DNA from: Rhizomicrobium sp.
Lineage (GTDB): Bacteria; Pseudomonadota; Alphaproteobacteria; Micropepsales; Micropepsaceae
NCBI GenBank assembly: GCA_037200045.1
Contig: JBBCHM010000002.1
Coordinates: 1,353,241-1,417,240, forward strand
Reading direction: 5' to 3'
DNA length: 64,000 nt
The stretch's first letter is position 1; the number at the start of each line of letters is the position of its first letter. This document shows, piece by piece, positions 31,219 through 38,889 of this stretch. A program made the translations under genes and the position numbers. Below the pieces are notes generated by a model. It was not told the origin of the DNA, made no database searches, and saw nothing but the letters and a program-made list of their open reading frames with translations.

Positions 31219-32205
31219 CTAACGCCGCAGCGCCTCGCGGTTCACGATCCGCACGGGCTTTCCATCCAGCCACGCCGCCACGGCTTCCACCGCGTCGGAA
31301 TAGACCGCGCCCAGCAATTCGCGGGTGACGTATCCAAGGTGGGGAGACAGCGTCACGTTCGGCAGGAACCGCAACGGATGATCGGCCGGCAGCGGTTCGG
31401 CGTCGTAGACATCCAGTCCCGCTCCGGCGATCTGTCCGGCCCCGAGCGCGGCGATCAGAGCCGCTTCGTCGACGATCGGGCCTCGGGACGTGTTGATCAG
31501 ATAGGCGCTCGGCTTCATCAGCGCCAGTTCGGATTCGGTGACGAGACCTCGCGTGCGCTCCGACAGCACCAGATGGATGGAGACCACATCCGCTTCCGCA
31601 AAGAGAGCCGTTTTCTCGACCCGGCGCACGCCAACCGCCGCCGCGGCCTCGTCGGTCAGATTCTGGCTCCAGGCGATGACCTCCATCCCGAACACTTTCG
31701 CGTATTCGGCCATGCGTTTGCCGATCCGGCCGAGGCCGAGAAGGCCGAGCGTCTTGCCGTGCAAGGTCATGCCGGTGGTGGTCTGCCACCCGCCCTCGCG
31801 CATGCGCCGATGTTCTTCGGCCAGGTTGCGCACCGTCGCGATCATCAACCCCCAAGCCAGTTCCGGGGTGCCGTTGCCGGCAGCGGCGAATCTGGGGTTG
31901 GCGAAGTTGGGATGGACCACAAGGATGCCCCGTTCGCCGGCGGCCGCCATGTCCAGGTTCGTCAGGCTCATGCCGACGATGGTGATCAGTTTCAGTTTCG
32001 GCAGCCGCTCGATCAGCGTGCGCGGAAAAGCCATGCGCTCGCGCAGGGTGCAGACCGCGTCGAACGCTTGCAGCGCCTCCACGGCCTCGTCCTCGGTGAG
32101 ATGACGGTCGAAAGCCGTGACGTCCGCCCTGCTCCGCACGGGCGACCAGTCGGCGAGGTCGAGCGCGACGCCGGCATAGTCGTCGAGTATCGCCACTTTG
32201 GGCAT
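31219..32205 (-). CDS. D-2-hydroxyacid dehydrogenase family protein
   Basis: The 328-residue protein has the two-domain fold of the family. It shows the NAD-binding LGLLGLGRIGKRMAEYAKVF, the catalytic-arginine region INTSRGPIVDEAALIAALG, GAGLDVYDAEPLPADHPL, and the catalytic histidine in VTLSPHLGYVTRELL. The substrate-binding N-terminal part contains KLITIVGMSLTNLDMAAAGE. Members interconvert 2-hydroxy acids and 2-oxo acids with NAD(P)H or act in phosphonate and serine pathways. GGGAGACC lies just upstream of the ATG. It stands alone between a decayed region and the kinase/HerA pair, and the substrate is unknown. Confidence 0.92.
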   Translation of the reverse strand: MPKVAILDDYAGVALDLADWSPVRSRADVTAFDRHLTEDEAVEALQAFDAVCTLRERMAFPRTLIERLPKLKLITIVGMSLTNLDMAAAGERGILVVHPNFANPRFAAAGNGTPELAWGLMIATVRNLAEEHRRMREGGWQTTTGMTLHGKTLGLLGLGRIGKRMAEYAKVFGMEVIAWSQNLTDEAAAAVGVRRVEKTALFAEADVVSIHLVLSERTRGLVTESELALMKPSAYLINTSRGPIVDEAALIAALGAGQIAGAGLDVYDAEPLPADHPLRFLPNVTLSPHLGYVTRELLGAVYSDAVEAVAAWLDGKPVRIVNREALRR

Positions 32206-32500: not shown

Positions 32501-33319
32501 ATGCAACGCCAGCGCAAGATCGCGCTTCGGGAATCGCTTCTGTCGCGATACGCGGAATCTCTCGGCGAGATGACGATGCGCAAGCGGCACGAACAGGCGA
32601 TGAAGGCCGCGCGCGCCGAATCCGAACTCGCCAACCGCACCAAATCCGCCTTCCTCGCCACGATGAGCCACGAGCTGCGCACGCCGCTCAATTCGATCAT
32701 CGGCTTCTCCGACGTGATCGTGTCGCAGAAGGACCCCAGAAGCGCCGAATACGCCCAGCACATCGCCAAATCGGGGCGCCGGCTGCTCGAGGTCGTGTCC
32801 GACATCCTAGACATCTCCAAGATCGAGAGCGGCAGCTTCGTGCTCAACCGCCAGCCGGCCGATCTGGGCGACATCGTGGACGCCGCCGCCGAGACGATGC
32901 GCGAGGCGATCGCGCAAAAGCACCAGGCGCTGGACGTGCGCGTGCCGCGCGACCTGCCGATGCTGACGGTCGATTCCAAGCGCATCCGGCAGGTGCTGGT
33001 GAACCTGCTTTCCAACGCCAGCAAATTCACGCCGGAGCGCGGCCGCATCGTCCTGGTGGCGCGCGCCAATCCCGATGGCGGCGCGACCATCGCCGTGGCC
33101 GATACCGGCGTCGGCATGTCCCCCGACCAGATCGCCGTCGCGCTCAAGCCCTTCGGCCAGGTCCAGGGCCATCTGTCGCGCACCCAGGAAGGGGCCGGCC
33201 TCGGCCTTCCCATCGCGCGCGGACTGGCGCGCCAGCACGGCGGCGACATCTTCATCGAGAGCAAGCCCGGCCAGGGCACCACCGTCCTCTTCAGCCTGCC
33301 ACGGAGCGCCGCGTCATGA
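32501..33319 (+). CDS. Sensorless histidine kinase
   Basis: The 272-residue protein lacks transmembrane and sensor domains. It has a short N-terminal coiled segment (residues 1-50) and then a HisKA domain with the phospho-acceptor H57 in ATMSHELRTPLNSIIGFSDV. The catalytic HATPase domain follows with the N-box (LVNLLSNASKFTPE, N172), the G1 box DTGVGM (201-206), and the G2 box GAGLGLPIARG. It should autophosphorylate in the cytoplasm. Its stop overlaps the start of the HerA-like ATPase gene (ATGA), so translation is coupled. No response regulator is encoded next to it. Confidence 0.92.
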   Translation: MQRQRKIALRESLLSRYAESLGEMTMRKRHEQAMKAARAESELANRTKSAFLATMSHELRTPLNSIIGFSDVIVSQKDPRSAEYAQHIAKSGRRLLEVVSDILDISKIESGSFVLNRQPADLGDIVDAAAETMREAIAQKHQALDVRVPRDLPMLTVDSKRIRQVLVNLLSNASKFTPERGRIVLVARANPDGGATIAVADTGVGMSPDQIAVALKPFGQVQGHLSRTQEGAGLGLPIARGLARQHGGDIFIESKPGQGTTVLFSLPRSAAS

Positions 33320-35016
33320 ACCAGGTCTTCCGTCCGCCGGCACCGCCCGCCAGCGCGGCCCTGCCCAAGGAACGCCGCGGCGTGCCGGCCAGCCCGCCGG
33401 TGCAGATCGCCCATGTCGTGTCGGTCGCCGGCTCGCACTGCATCGCGGTGCTGGAGCACCGGGCCAAGGGCGCGGTCGCGGCCAAGGATCCGCGCGTGCA
33501 GATCGGCGCGCTGGTGAAGATCGTGACGCCCGCTTCCGCCGTGATGGGACTGGTCTCGGCGATGACCGCGCCGATGCCCAACGCCGACGGCCCCGAGGAG
33601 ACCGGCCTCATCGAGATCAATCTCGCCGGCGAAGTGGCGGTCGACGACACTTCCAAGCGCCTGACCTTCAAGCGCGGCGTGACGCAGCTTCCCTCGATCG
33701 GCGATCCGGTGCTGTTCGCCGACCGCCACGACCTGACCCGCGTCTACGCCCCGCCGGCGGTCGCCAGCGTCAAGGTCGGCACCCTGTTCCAGGACCCGAG
33801 CGTGCCGGCGCGGCTCCTGACCGACGATCTGCTCGCCAAGCATTTCATCGTGGTGGGCTCGACCGGCTCGGGCAAGTCCTGCGCGCTCACCGCGATCCTG
33901 CAGCGGCTGCTCTACGAGCATTCCGGCGCCCATGTCGTGATCCTGGACGTGCACAACGAATATGCCACCGCCTTCGAGGGCATGGTGGAGCGGGTCACGC
34001 TGAACAATTTCAACCTGCCCTTCTGGCTGCTCAACTTCACCGAATTGTCGGCGGCGCTGACCTCCAAGGACCAGCACCACGACGCCGAGATCGAGATCCT
34101 GAGCGAGGCGGTGGTCTACGCCAAGCGGCGCTATTCGGAAGCCGCGGCGGGCCGCGCGCGCCGGCCGCAGGAAATGTCCGCGGTCATCAGCGTCGACACG
34201 CCGACGCCGTTCCGCCTCTCCGACGTGACCGCCTATATCGACGACCGGCTGGGCAAGCTGGAACGCACGCATATGACGCTGCCCTATCGCCGGCTGAAGA
34301 CCCAGATCGAGAGCCTGGTCGCCGACCAGCGCTACAATTTCATGTTCGGCAGCCTGACCATCCAGGACACGATGACCGACGTGCTGAGCCGGCTGTTCCG
34401 CATCCCGAACGAGGGGCGGCCGATCACCGTGGTGGACCTTTCCACCGCGCCGCCGGAAATCCTCGACGTCATCATCTCGGTGATCTCGCGGCTTGCCTTC
34501 GACCTCGCCGTCTGGAGCAACGGCGCGGTGCCGATGCTGCTGGTCTGCGAGGAGGCGCATCGCTACGCCCCGGCCTCGGACAAGGACGTGACCTTCGTGC
34601 CGACGCGGCGCGAACTGGGGCGCATCGCCAAGGAGGGACGCAAATACTCGCTGTCGCTGGCGCTGGTGACGCAGCGGCCGTCCGACCTCGATCCCAACAT
34701 CCTGTCGCAATGCGGCACCGCAGTCGCCATGCGCCTTTCCAGCGAGCGCGACCAGCAGGTGATCCGCGCCAACACCTATGAGGGCATGATCGATCTGCTC
34801 GATTTCCTGCCGCTGCTCGGCGACCGCGAGGCCATCGTGCTCGGCCAGGGCGTGTCGATGCCGATGCGCATCAAGTTCGACGTGCTGGGCCGCGGCAATG
34901 TCCCGAAGAACATGAACGCCGGCTTCTCCAAATCGTGGAAGGGCCAGAAGCTGGAGCGCGCCTCGCTCGACGCCATCGTCACGCGCTGGCGCCAGGGCGG
35001 GCGCGAGCGGGAATAG
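33316..35016 (+). CDS. HerA-like ATPase / DNA translocase (DUF87)
   Basis: The 566-residue protein has an N-terminal HAS-barrel-like domain (residues about 30-150) and then a HerA/FtsK-type ATPase with Walker A GSTGSGKS (181-188), DVHNEYATAF, and Walker B LLVCEEAHRYAP (408-419). Sensor and arginine-finger regions follow: RRELGRIAKEGRKYSLSLAL, TQRPSDLDPNILSQCGT and MRLSSERDQQVIRANTYEG. HerA enzymes form hexamers that pump DNA, normally with the nuclease NurA, and related forms occur in defence systems. No nuclease gene adjoins it here; the partner encoded in the same operon is a histidine kinase, which is unusual. Confidence 0.92.
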   Translation: MNQVFRPPAPPASAALPKERRGVPASPPVQIAHVVSVAGSHCIAVLEHRAKGAVAAKDPRVQIGALVKIVTPASAVMGLVSAMTAPMPNADGPEETGLIEINLAGEVAVDDTSKRLTFKRGVTQLPSIGDPVLFADRHDLTRVYAPPAVASVKVGTLFQDPSVPARLLTDDLLAKHFIVVGSTGSGKSCALTAILQRLLYEHSGAHVVILDVHNEYATAFEGMVERVTLNNFNLPFWLLNFTELSAALTSKDQHHDAEIEILSEAVVYAKRRYSEAAAGRARRPQEMSAVISVDTPTPFRLSDVTAYIDDRLGKLERTHMTLPYRRLKTQIESLVADQRYNFMFGSLTIQDTMTDVLSRLFRIPNEGRPITVVDLSTAPPEILDVIISVISRLAFDLAVWSNGAVPMLLVCEEAHRYAPASDKDVTFVPTRRELGRIAKEGRKYSLSLALVTQRPSDLDPNILSQCGTAVAMRLSSERDQQVIRANTYEGMIDLLDFLPLLGDREAIVLGQGVSMPMRIKFDVLGRGNVPKNMNAGFSKSWKGQKLERASLDAIVTRWRQGGRERE

Positions 35017-36063
35017 TCAGGCGGTCCGCGGAAAGCATTCCGCGATCGCCTTGATCCATTGCTTGACGCTCTCGATCGTGTCCTCTTGCGTGGCGCCGAG
35101 GCGCACGATGACGAGATCGCGATCCGGCACCACCACGATGAACTGCCCCTGAAAGCCGTTCGCCGAGAAGCTGCCCGGGCCGGCGATGTCGAGCCACCAA
35201 TGCGCGCCATAGCGGCCGGTCTCGATCGACTCCTGCGAGGTCGGCGTGCGGGCGTAATCGACCCAGCCTTCCGGCAACAATCGCACGCCATCCCAGACGC
35301 CGTCGCGCAGATAAAGCAGGCCGAAACGCGCGAAGTCGCGCGCCGTCGCAAAGCAATAGGACGAGCCGATGAAGGTGCCCGCCGCGTCGAATTTCGGCAC
35401 AGGCGAGGCCATGCCGAGCGGCGCGAACAATCGCGCGCGCATGTAAGCCTCGAAGTCGGCGCCGAACTTGCCCGTCGCGATCGAGGCGGCGCGCGCCACC
35501 AGATTCGCTGTGCCGCTGGAATAGGACCAGAACGTGCCCGGCGCGTGCGCCAGCGGCTTCTGCGCGGCGTAATGCGCGACGTCGTCCCTGCCCTCGCCGA
35601 ACAGCATCGCGACCGTGTCCGACGGCCCGTCCGGCGTGTAGACTTCGAGAAAGGCGAGCCCGTCGGACATGCGCAGCATCTGATCGAGCGTGATCGCGCG
35701 GCGCGGATCGCCGGGCTCCCGCCATTCCGGCACGGCGGCCGGCGCGGTGATGTCGGCCAGGCCGTCCTTCACCACAAGGCCCATAAGGGCCTGGGTGATG
35801 CTCTTGGCGACCGACCAGGACGGCAGCGTGTCGGTGGCGGTCACGCCGGCGCCATAGCGCTCGAATACAAGGCGGCCGCGATGGATCACGACCAGCGCAT
35901 GGGTCTCGCGTAGATCGTCGGGCAGGATGGACGCGAAGGCATAGTCGGCGAGTTGGTGCAGGCGCGTCCGGTCGGCGGAGGCGGGAACATCGCCGGTCGG
36001 CCAATCCCGCGTCGGCCAGGGCGTGCCGGCGGGCTGCGGCGGAAGAGATACGAGATCGGTCAT
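35017..36063 (-). CDS. Serine hydrolase of the class C beta-lactamase family (6-aminohexanoate-dimer hydrolase-like)
   Basis: The 348-residue protein has the S84-x-x-K87 nucleophile motif in PSWSVAKSITQALMG, the tyrosine motif region WSYSSGTANL (Y181), and the late GAHWWLDIAGPGSFSANGFQ segment that replaces the KTG box in NylB-like enzymes. No signal peptide is visible, so it is probably cytoplasmic. Such enzymes are amide or ester hydrolases rather than drug-resistance enzymes. It ends directly after the HerA-like gene in convergent orientation with no gap. Confidence 0.88.
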   Translation of the reverse strand: MTDLVSLPPQPAGTPWPTRDWPTGDVPASADRTRLHQLADYAFASILPDDLRETHALVVIHRGRLVFERYGAGVTATDTLPSWSVAKSITQALMGLVVKDGLADITAPAAVPEWREPGDPRRAITLDQMLRMSDGLAFLEVYTPDGPSDTVAMLFGEGRDDVAHYAAQKPLAHAPGTFWSYSSGTANLVARAASIATGKFGADFEAYMRARLFAPLGMASPVPKFDAAGTFIGSSYCFATARDFARFGLLYLRDGVWDGVRLLPEGWVDYARTPTSQESIETGRYGAHWWLDIAGPGSFSANGFQGQFIVVVPDRDLVIVRLGATQEDTIESVKQWIKAIAECFPRTA

Positions 36064-38028: not shown

Positions 38029-38787
38029 TCAGTGTCTCGGCTTGATGAATTTGAGGATGAATTGGTCCGTATGATGGCGGATCGAGGGATCGAAGACGAG
38101 CTTGTCGCGCGGGTCCTTGGGGTTGCGCAGCACGTTGCTCTCGCCCGCGAATTTGAAGCCGGCCGCCTCGACCTCCTGCTTGACCGCCGCCTCGTCGATG
38201 CGGTGCAGCGTGTCGGTGTCGCGCAGGCCCGAGCCGTTCGCGGCCGCGTGGTCGAGCACGACGAAAACCCCGCCCGGCTTCAGCGCGGCGAACACCGCCT
38301 TGTTGACGAGGGCGAGATCGGCCGGCGCGTAGAACGGATCGTGGAAGTCGTGATAGTTCTGCGCCGTCCACACCACGTCGAGCGATTCCGGCGCGGCCAG
38401 GCTGTTGATCGGCCCGTGCAGCACGCTGACATTCGGATAGGCGGCGAACATCTTCTTGATGTCGACGCCCGGCGAGCGCTTGGCGAGGATCGGATCGAGC
38501 TCGGCCGGCACGAAGGCATAGACCCAGCCCTTGTCGCCCACCACTTTCGCGAAGATGCGCGTGAAATAGCCGCCGCCGGGCGCCAGGTCCATGACGCGGC
38601 TACCGGGCCGGATGCCGGCGAAGACGACCATCTCGGCGGGCTTGCGCTCGTCGTCGACCTTCCGGTCGGCGTCCGGCCGGCCGGGATCGGCGATGGCGGC
38701 GGTCACGGCGGCTGGTGCTTTCGCGAATGCCGGCGCGGCGGCGAGCGTTGCCGTCAGAAAAGCGGCGGCCATCCAATGGCGGGACAT
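38029..38787 (-). CDS. Exported class I methyltransferase-like protein
   Basis: The 252-residue protein has a Sec signal peptide (MAAAFLTATLAAAPAFAKA, cleavage near residue 22) in front of a Rossmann-type methyltransferase fold. Motif I is SRVMDLAPGGGYFTRIFAKV, with later VVWTAQNYHDFHDPF and PGGVFVVLDHAAANG. S-adenosylmethionine is normally absent from the periplasm, so activity there is doubtful or depends on an unknown supply. GGGAGGA precedes the ATG at 38787, supporting a start that includes the signal peptide. It precedes the DUF5666 gene by 11 bases. Confidence 0.85.
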   Translation of the reverse strand: MSRHWMAAAFLTATLAAAPAFAKAPAAVTAAIADPGRPDADRKVDDERKPAEMVVFAGIRPGSRVMDLAPGGGYFTRIFAKVVGDKGWVYAFVPAELDPILAKRSPGVDIKKMFAAYPNVSVLHGPINSLAAPESLDVVWTAQNYHDFHDPFYAPADLALVNKAVFAALKPGGVFVVLDHAAANGSGLRDTDTLHRIDEAAVKQEVEAAGFKFAGESNVLRNPKDPRDKLVFDPSIRHHTDQFILKFIKPRH

Positions 38788-38889
38788 GCGTTCCTCCCCG
38801 GTTTTGCGGCGCGACACTAGCCCGGCGGCGCGCGCGATGCACGGACCGCAAAGGCGCTTCACGCCGCGGTGATGTTTCTCACGGTCCGG

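Follow-up and report, generated by a model that had tools for sequence, protein, structure and literature searches.

A histidine kinase without a sensor and a HerA-like DNA translocase form a conserved two-gene unit in alphaproteobacteria

What could be the input of a histidine kinase that has no sensor, and what could be the role of a HerA ATPase that is accompanied by neither NurA nor a defence effector? These two puzzles are joined in the window analyzed here, a 64,000-nucleotide stretch of the genome of Rhizomicrobium sp., where the gene of a cytoplasmic-type, sensorless histidine kinase of 272 amino acids (32501–33319, + strand) is followed by that of a HerA/DUF87 DNA translocase ATPase of the hexameric type having 566 amino acids (33316–35016, + strand). 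In an earlier note the stop codon of the former gene was reported to overlap the start codon of the latter; both open reading frames are indeed present and share the tetranucleotide ATGA at 33316–33319 (+ strand), an arrangement typical of translational coupling. The HisKA, HATPase_c and DUF87 matches of the pair all exceed the Pfam cut-offs. Since the upstream gene (31219–32205) is divergently oriented and the downstream gene (35017–36063) is convergent and touches the HerA stop, the unit is two genes long; a scan of the locus for promoters and terminators found none.

The only Pfam domains of the kinase are HisKA (residues 48–111) and HATPase_c (residues 158–268), so that the absence of sensor and membrane domains, also claimed in the note, stands. 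The ATG at 32501 is the sole start codon of the open frame, with none further upstream, and a longer, sensor-bearing form of the kinase therefore does not exist; in the predicted model a single continuous helix (residues 13–75) runs into the kinase core. Pfam, the start-codon check and the model thus all failed to find a sensor domain belonging to the kinase itself. Because the phospho-acceptor His57 (codon at 32669–32671, + strand), contained in the H-box SHELRTP, and residues N168/N172, D201/G203/G205 and G231/G233/G235 of the N, G1 and G2 boxes are invariant among 22 aligned kinases, the protein should be active, as predicted from the integrity of these boxes.

The paired kinases are characterized by an N-terminal helix motif, LLxxYxxxxGxxxxRxxxExA (residues 11–33; 32531–32599, + strand), whose L13, L14, Y17, G22, R27, E31 and A33, all located within the first 45 residues, are invariant in the 22-sequence alignment. 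A motif of the LLxxY type is present in 54 of 54 intact paired kinases vis-à-vis 2 of 46 other kinases, the latter figures resulting from an initial set of 48 kinases, four of which had the motif, after removal of two that proved to be themselves paired. It is proposed that this segment represents a docking or signalling helix. The kinase cores of TorS, DivJ and PdhS, which have HisKA and HATPase_c in common with the window kinase, gave good scores; unlike the histidine kinases of these types, however, the latter has no sensor, PAS, receiver or membrane part and no adjacent regulator, possesses its own N-terminal motif and remains below the equivalog cut-offs. None of the PADLOC families matched it, and in a tree of kinase domains a single origin of the paired kinases is neither shown nor excluded.

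As to the second protein, Pfam (DUF87, 1e-37), PADLOC (HerA model PDLC04105, 3e-108), the predicted model (pLDDT 81.9) and the fold matches of this model (SIR2/HerA 8wld, 1.4e-37; DUF4297-HerA 9c1m and 8xav) all identify it as a HerA-type ATPase with a HAS barrel and a RecA core. The strands of the HAS β-barrel occupy residues about 30–150 of the model (33403–33765, + strand). The Walker A motif GSTGSGKS (residues 181–188; 33856–33879, + strand), of which G181, T183, G184, G186, K187 and S188 do not vary, the Walker B motif CEEAH with its acidic pair E412–E413 (34549–34554, + strand), an RK pair and a QRP motif are invariant across 25 sequences.

HerA relatives were sought among 100 relatives and, class-wide, in 386 genomes, with a named collection adding Parvibaculum and other alphaproteobacteria, and loci were found in many families. 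Wherever the identity of HerA is at least 57%, the kinase gene is found directly upstream on the same strand at every locus having intact and covered upstream DNA; separation of the two genes in relatives, which the earlier note had named as the observation that would speak against their partnership, was looked for in close relatives, and there the genes stay together. The pair recurs in other families at about 41–46% HerA identity (14 loci); among its carriers is a cultured species, Parvibaculum indicum. In 43 of 57 non-redundant pairs HerA starts at exactly −4, counting from the last nucleotide of the kinase stop, and, since the kinases of most of these are only about 50–60% identical to the window kinase, the recurrence of the overlap is far beyond chance; the pairs lacking it are mostly divergent ones.

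The co-occurrence of the two genes was scored in 37 genomes, taking as thresholds an identity of at least 53% for HerA and of at least 51%, with at least 265 bits, for the kinase orthologue, the next-best kinases reaching at most 229 bits and leaving a clear gap. Both genes are present in 21 genomes and neither in 14, the kinase never occurs alone, and in both genomes with HerA alone the gene is broken, being split between frames in one (L103) and reduced to a C-terminal remnant in the other (L104). The hypergeometric probability of this distribution is near 2e-8, a value that exaggerates the association since the genomes are related and not independent. The distances of kinase and HerA are correlated (r = 0.86 over 51 pairs), as expected from shared descent, and this correlation indicates only the absence of frequent swapping. 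A third gene conserved in the unit across clades did not emerge from the comparison of neighbourhoods. Strong support exists for regarding the pairing as a functional unit; the pair is no accident of this locus, and many alphaproteobacteria carry it as a conserved unit.

What position does the kinase occupy in this unit? Eight more distant HerA loci (about 30–33% identity) were examined, two belonging to the class and six lying outside it, and in all eight a SIR2-family gene, confirmed by PADLOC, is located directly upstream; furthermore, the genome of origin itself contains a second HerA belonging to a SIR2–HerA pair (G000:C1:1861500–1873500; L197:3996–7446, minus strand), in which the genes of a SIR2 of 462 and a HerA of 689 amino acids overlap by 8 nt, with type I restriction genes next to them; this pair is useful as an internal control. 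The view expressed in the note that HerA is usually associated with a defence effector is thereby borne out, and these findings imply that, in a familiar two-gene layout, the place of the effector is taken by the kinase. Since related bacteria have a toxic enzyme of a HerA-based anti-virus system in this place, the arrangement suggests that the ring-shaped DNA motor feeds a signalling pathway here rather than killing the cell. The likeness to the SIR2–HerA (Nezha-type) defence pair includes the HerA fold (8wld, E 1e-37) and the effector gene directly upstream on the same strand, as is that of the kinase, whereas the differences concern the partner (SIR2 vs histidine kinase), the setting (defence vs metabolic) and HerA itself, which is only about 30–34% identical to the kinase-paired protein. 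Likewise, the DUF4297–HerA (Cap4 nuclease) pair offers a structural match for HerA and the same two-component design of effector and HerA, but no nuclease domain exists in the partner found here, which consists of HisKA and HATPase_c and is neither a SIR2 nor a DUF4297/Cap4 effector. In DUF4297–HerA the HerA ring is the scaffold on which the effector is seated, at the level of the HAS ring; assembly activates both enzymes, the HerA ATPase being switched on when its partner binds (PMC11291478).

The HerA–NurA end-resection complex has the DUF87/HerA motor in common with the present pair but differs in its NurA nuclease, which is absent here. Co-occurrence of HerA with an unlinked nuclease, which the note had also set against a partnership with the kinase, was not seen in the case of NurA, which was found in 0 of 41 genomes in a search that detected the positive control in 7 of 14; NurA as an unlinked partner was rejected on this basis. 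A search of 31 genomes for a Cap4/DUF4297 nuclease, carried out without a positive control, yielded no match.

The reading that we prefer, to which we give about even chances, is that of a two-gene effector–HerA module in which the histidine kinase is the effector, the HerA ring provides its input and the output is directed to an unlinked response regulator. In this reading the N-terminal helix of the kinase would be its point of attachment to the HerA ring, the probable site being the HAS crown, on which DUF4297 is seated in the complex that it forms with HerA. The state of the ring, with DNA or ATP bound, would then take the place of the missing sensor and determine whether the kinase works as an autokinase or as a phosphatase, with the phosphoryl group being transferred to a response regulator encoded elsewhere; in this way a state of the DNA, such as free ends or stalled or foreign DNA, could be converted by HerA into two-component signalling. 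The earlier statement that no response regulator is found nearby holds for the neighbours examined in the window, none of which adjoins the pair as such a regulator. When HerA proteins of equal core identity are compared, HAS is slightly better conserved in those paired with the kinase than in the solo ones (mean 0.35 vs 0.28–0.33 at 45–55% core identity), a difference that is suggestive only; V35 and P86 alone stood out as residues specific for the paired HerA.

The direction of this control could also be the opposite, the kinase being the regulator and HerA the output, with binding or phosphorylation switching the DNA pump on or off. The evidence of pairing, overlap and co-inheritance serves this interpretation equally well, and the activation of the HerA ATPase by its partner in DUF4297–HerA (PMC11291478) offers a precedent for it; yet Pfam finds no receiver domain in HerA, and a kinase devoid of a sensor, if placed at the head of the pathway, would lack any obvious stimulus, so that we regard the reverse direction as rather unlikely. 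Accordingly, of the kinase-controlled DNA pump contemplated in the note the pairing is real, whereas the direction is the less likely one. The direction from HerA to the kinase is preferred since a sensor is missing from the kinase and a receiver domain from HerA, and we infer only, from what the two proteins lack, that HerA is the input.

A second possibility is that the unit serves anti-phage defence, HerA detecting phage DNA and the kinase, as the effector, triggering dormancy or cell death via a two-component pathway. Indeed, HerA matches the defence HerA model PDLC04105, SIR2 fills the equivalent slot in distant loci and presence in the genus is patchy, kinase and HerA being absent from about a third of it. 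On the other hand, HerA remains far from the NCBIfam cut-offs for anti-phage HerA equivalogs (240 vs 850 bits and 139 vs 800), and the surroundings lend no support to the defence idea put forward in the note. The neighbours in the window encode 2-hydroxyacid dehydrogenases, a LysR regulator, a beta-lactamase-like protein, a GST and an acetyl-CoA hydrolase-type enzyme; in general the flanking genes are metabolic or housekeeping, common to the members of each clade and not shared between the clades compared, so the neighbourhood is stable within clades and not island-like. One weak match to a defence model occurs nearby, namely that of the protein encoded at 38029–38862 (− strand) to PADLOC mads_2 (7e-11); it has no Pfam match at 1e-5 and is probably not a defence protein. 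Plasmids and phages yielded no close relative, the best plasmid match having 39% identity, and a phage origin was rejected, the one weak match being to a terminase (26%). The distribution resembles that of genes passed on vertically at a small number of chromosomal sites and not that of a mobile defence island, and the defence function is considered unlikely.

Conservation of the pair is not universal. It holds in close relatives, but many alphaproteobacterial HerA proteins at about 37–45% identity have no kinase; solo HerA is common and of full length, is preceded by varied genes and is the form found in several whole families and in Methylobacterium. Relocation of the kinase elsewhere was rejected, no short LLxxY-type kinase being seen in those of 22 genomes checked that have solo HerA. 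In a tree of 107 HerA sequences the pairing state changes seven times and is strongly clustered, gain and loss being indistinguishable. Four genomes (G030, G035, G039 and G041; loci L099–L102) have a second HerA, about 53% identical, that lacks the kinase, and the first three of them carry the kinase–HerA pair elsewhere; at L100 and L101 this HerA adjoins genes that look like those of Mla/VacJ-type lipid transport. Since full-length HerA is found without the kinase, even as a second copy (L099–L101), HerA can work without it. Could HerA then be a general DNA-maintenance ATPase and the kinase a facultative partner, gained and lost with no tight joint mechanism? The abundance of full-length solo HerA and the seven changes of state are compatible with such a role, but it is made very unlikely by the strict overlap, the kinase-specific N-terminal motif and the joint loss.

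A few individual loci deserve mention. In family f12 solo HerA is regularly preceded (nine loci) by the gene of a conserved, apparently secreted protein of ~255 amino acids with a VPxVSxRxIxI motif near its start, possibly a different HerA partner. At another locus (L094) a decayed HerA without kinase, of which residues 313–565 are left, is found in the vicinity of a gene resembling QueF. In a single MAG (L085/L105; L085:9197–11677) kinase and HerA form one frame of 827 codons: the kinase stops at HGG and is followed by TLHIDRP, the HerA N-terminus without its Met, with the loss of about 20 C-terminal kinase residues and of HerA's own start, the junction CTGCATATCGA being also found at the HerA start of relatives. 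The fusion may have arisen by a natural deletion, by decay of the locus or by a fault of assembly and gives minor support only to the pairing.

In the literature searched, which did not extend to the 2004 FtsK-HerA survey, no paper was found describing a histidine kinase as a partner of HerA or DUF87. The existence of a conserved kinase–HerA unit makes testable both the question of what informs a sensorless kinase and that of what HerA does without NurA or a defence effector. More tentatively, and with some doubt, HerA rings might be regarded as a general input platform for NADase, nuclease and kinase outputs, the present pair being a DNA-sensing two-component system in which a hexameric DNA translocase replaces the sensor. 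Should the kinase read a ring that threads DNA, the structure of DNA would be linked directly to two-component signalling, a connection for which the literature searched offered no example and, if this is true, the HerA scaffold of anti-phage killing can be turned to signalling.
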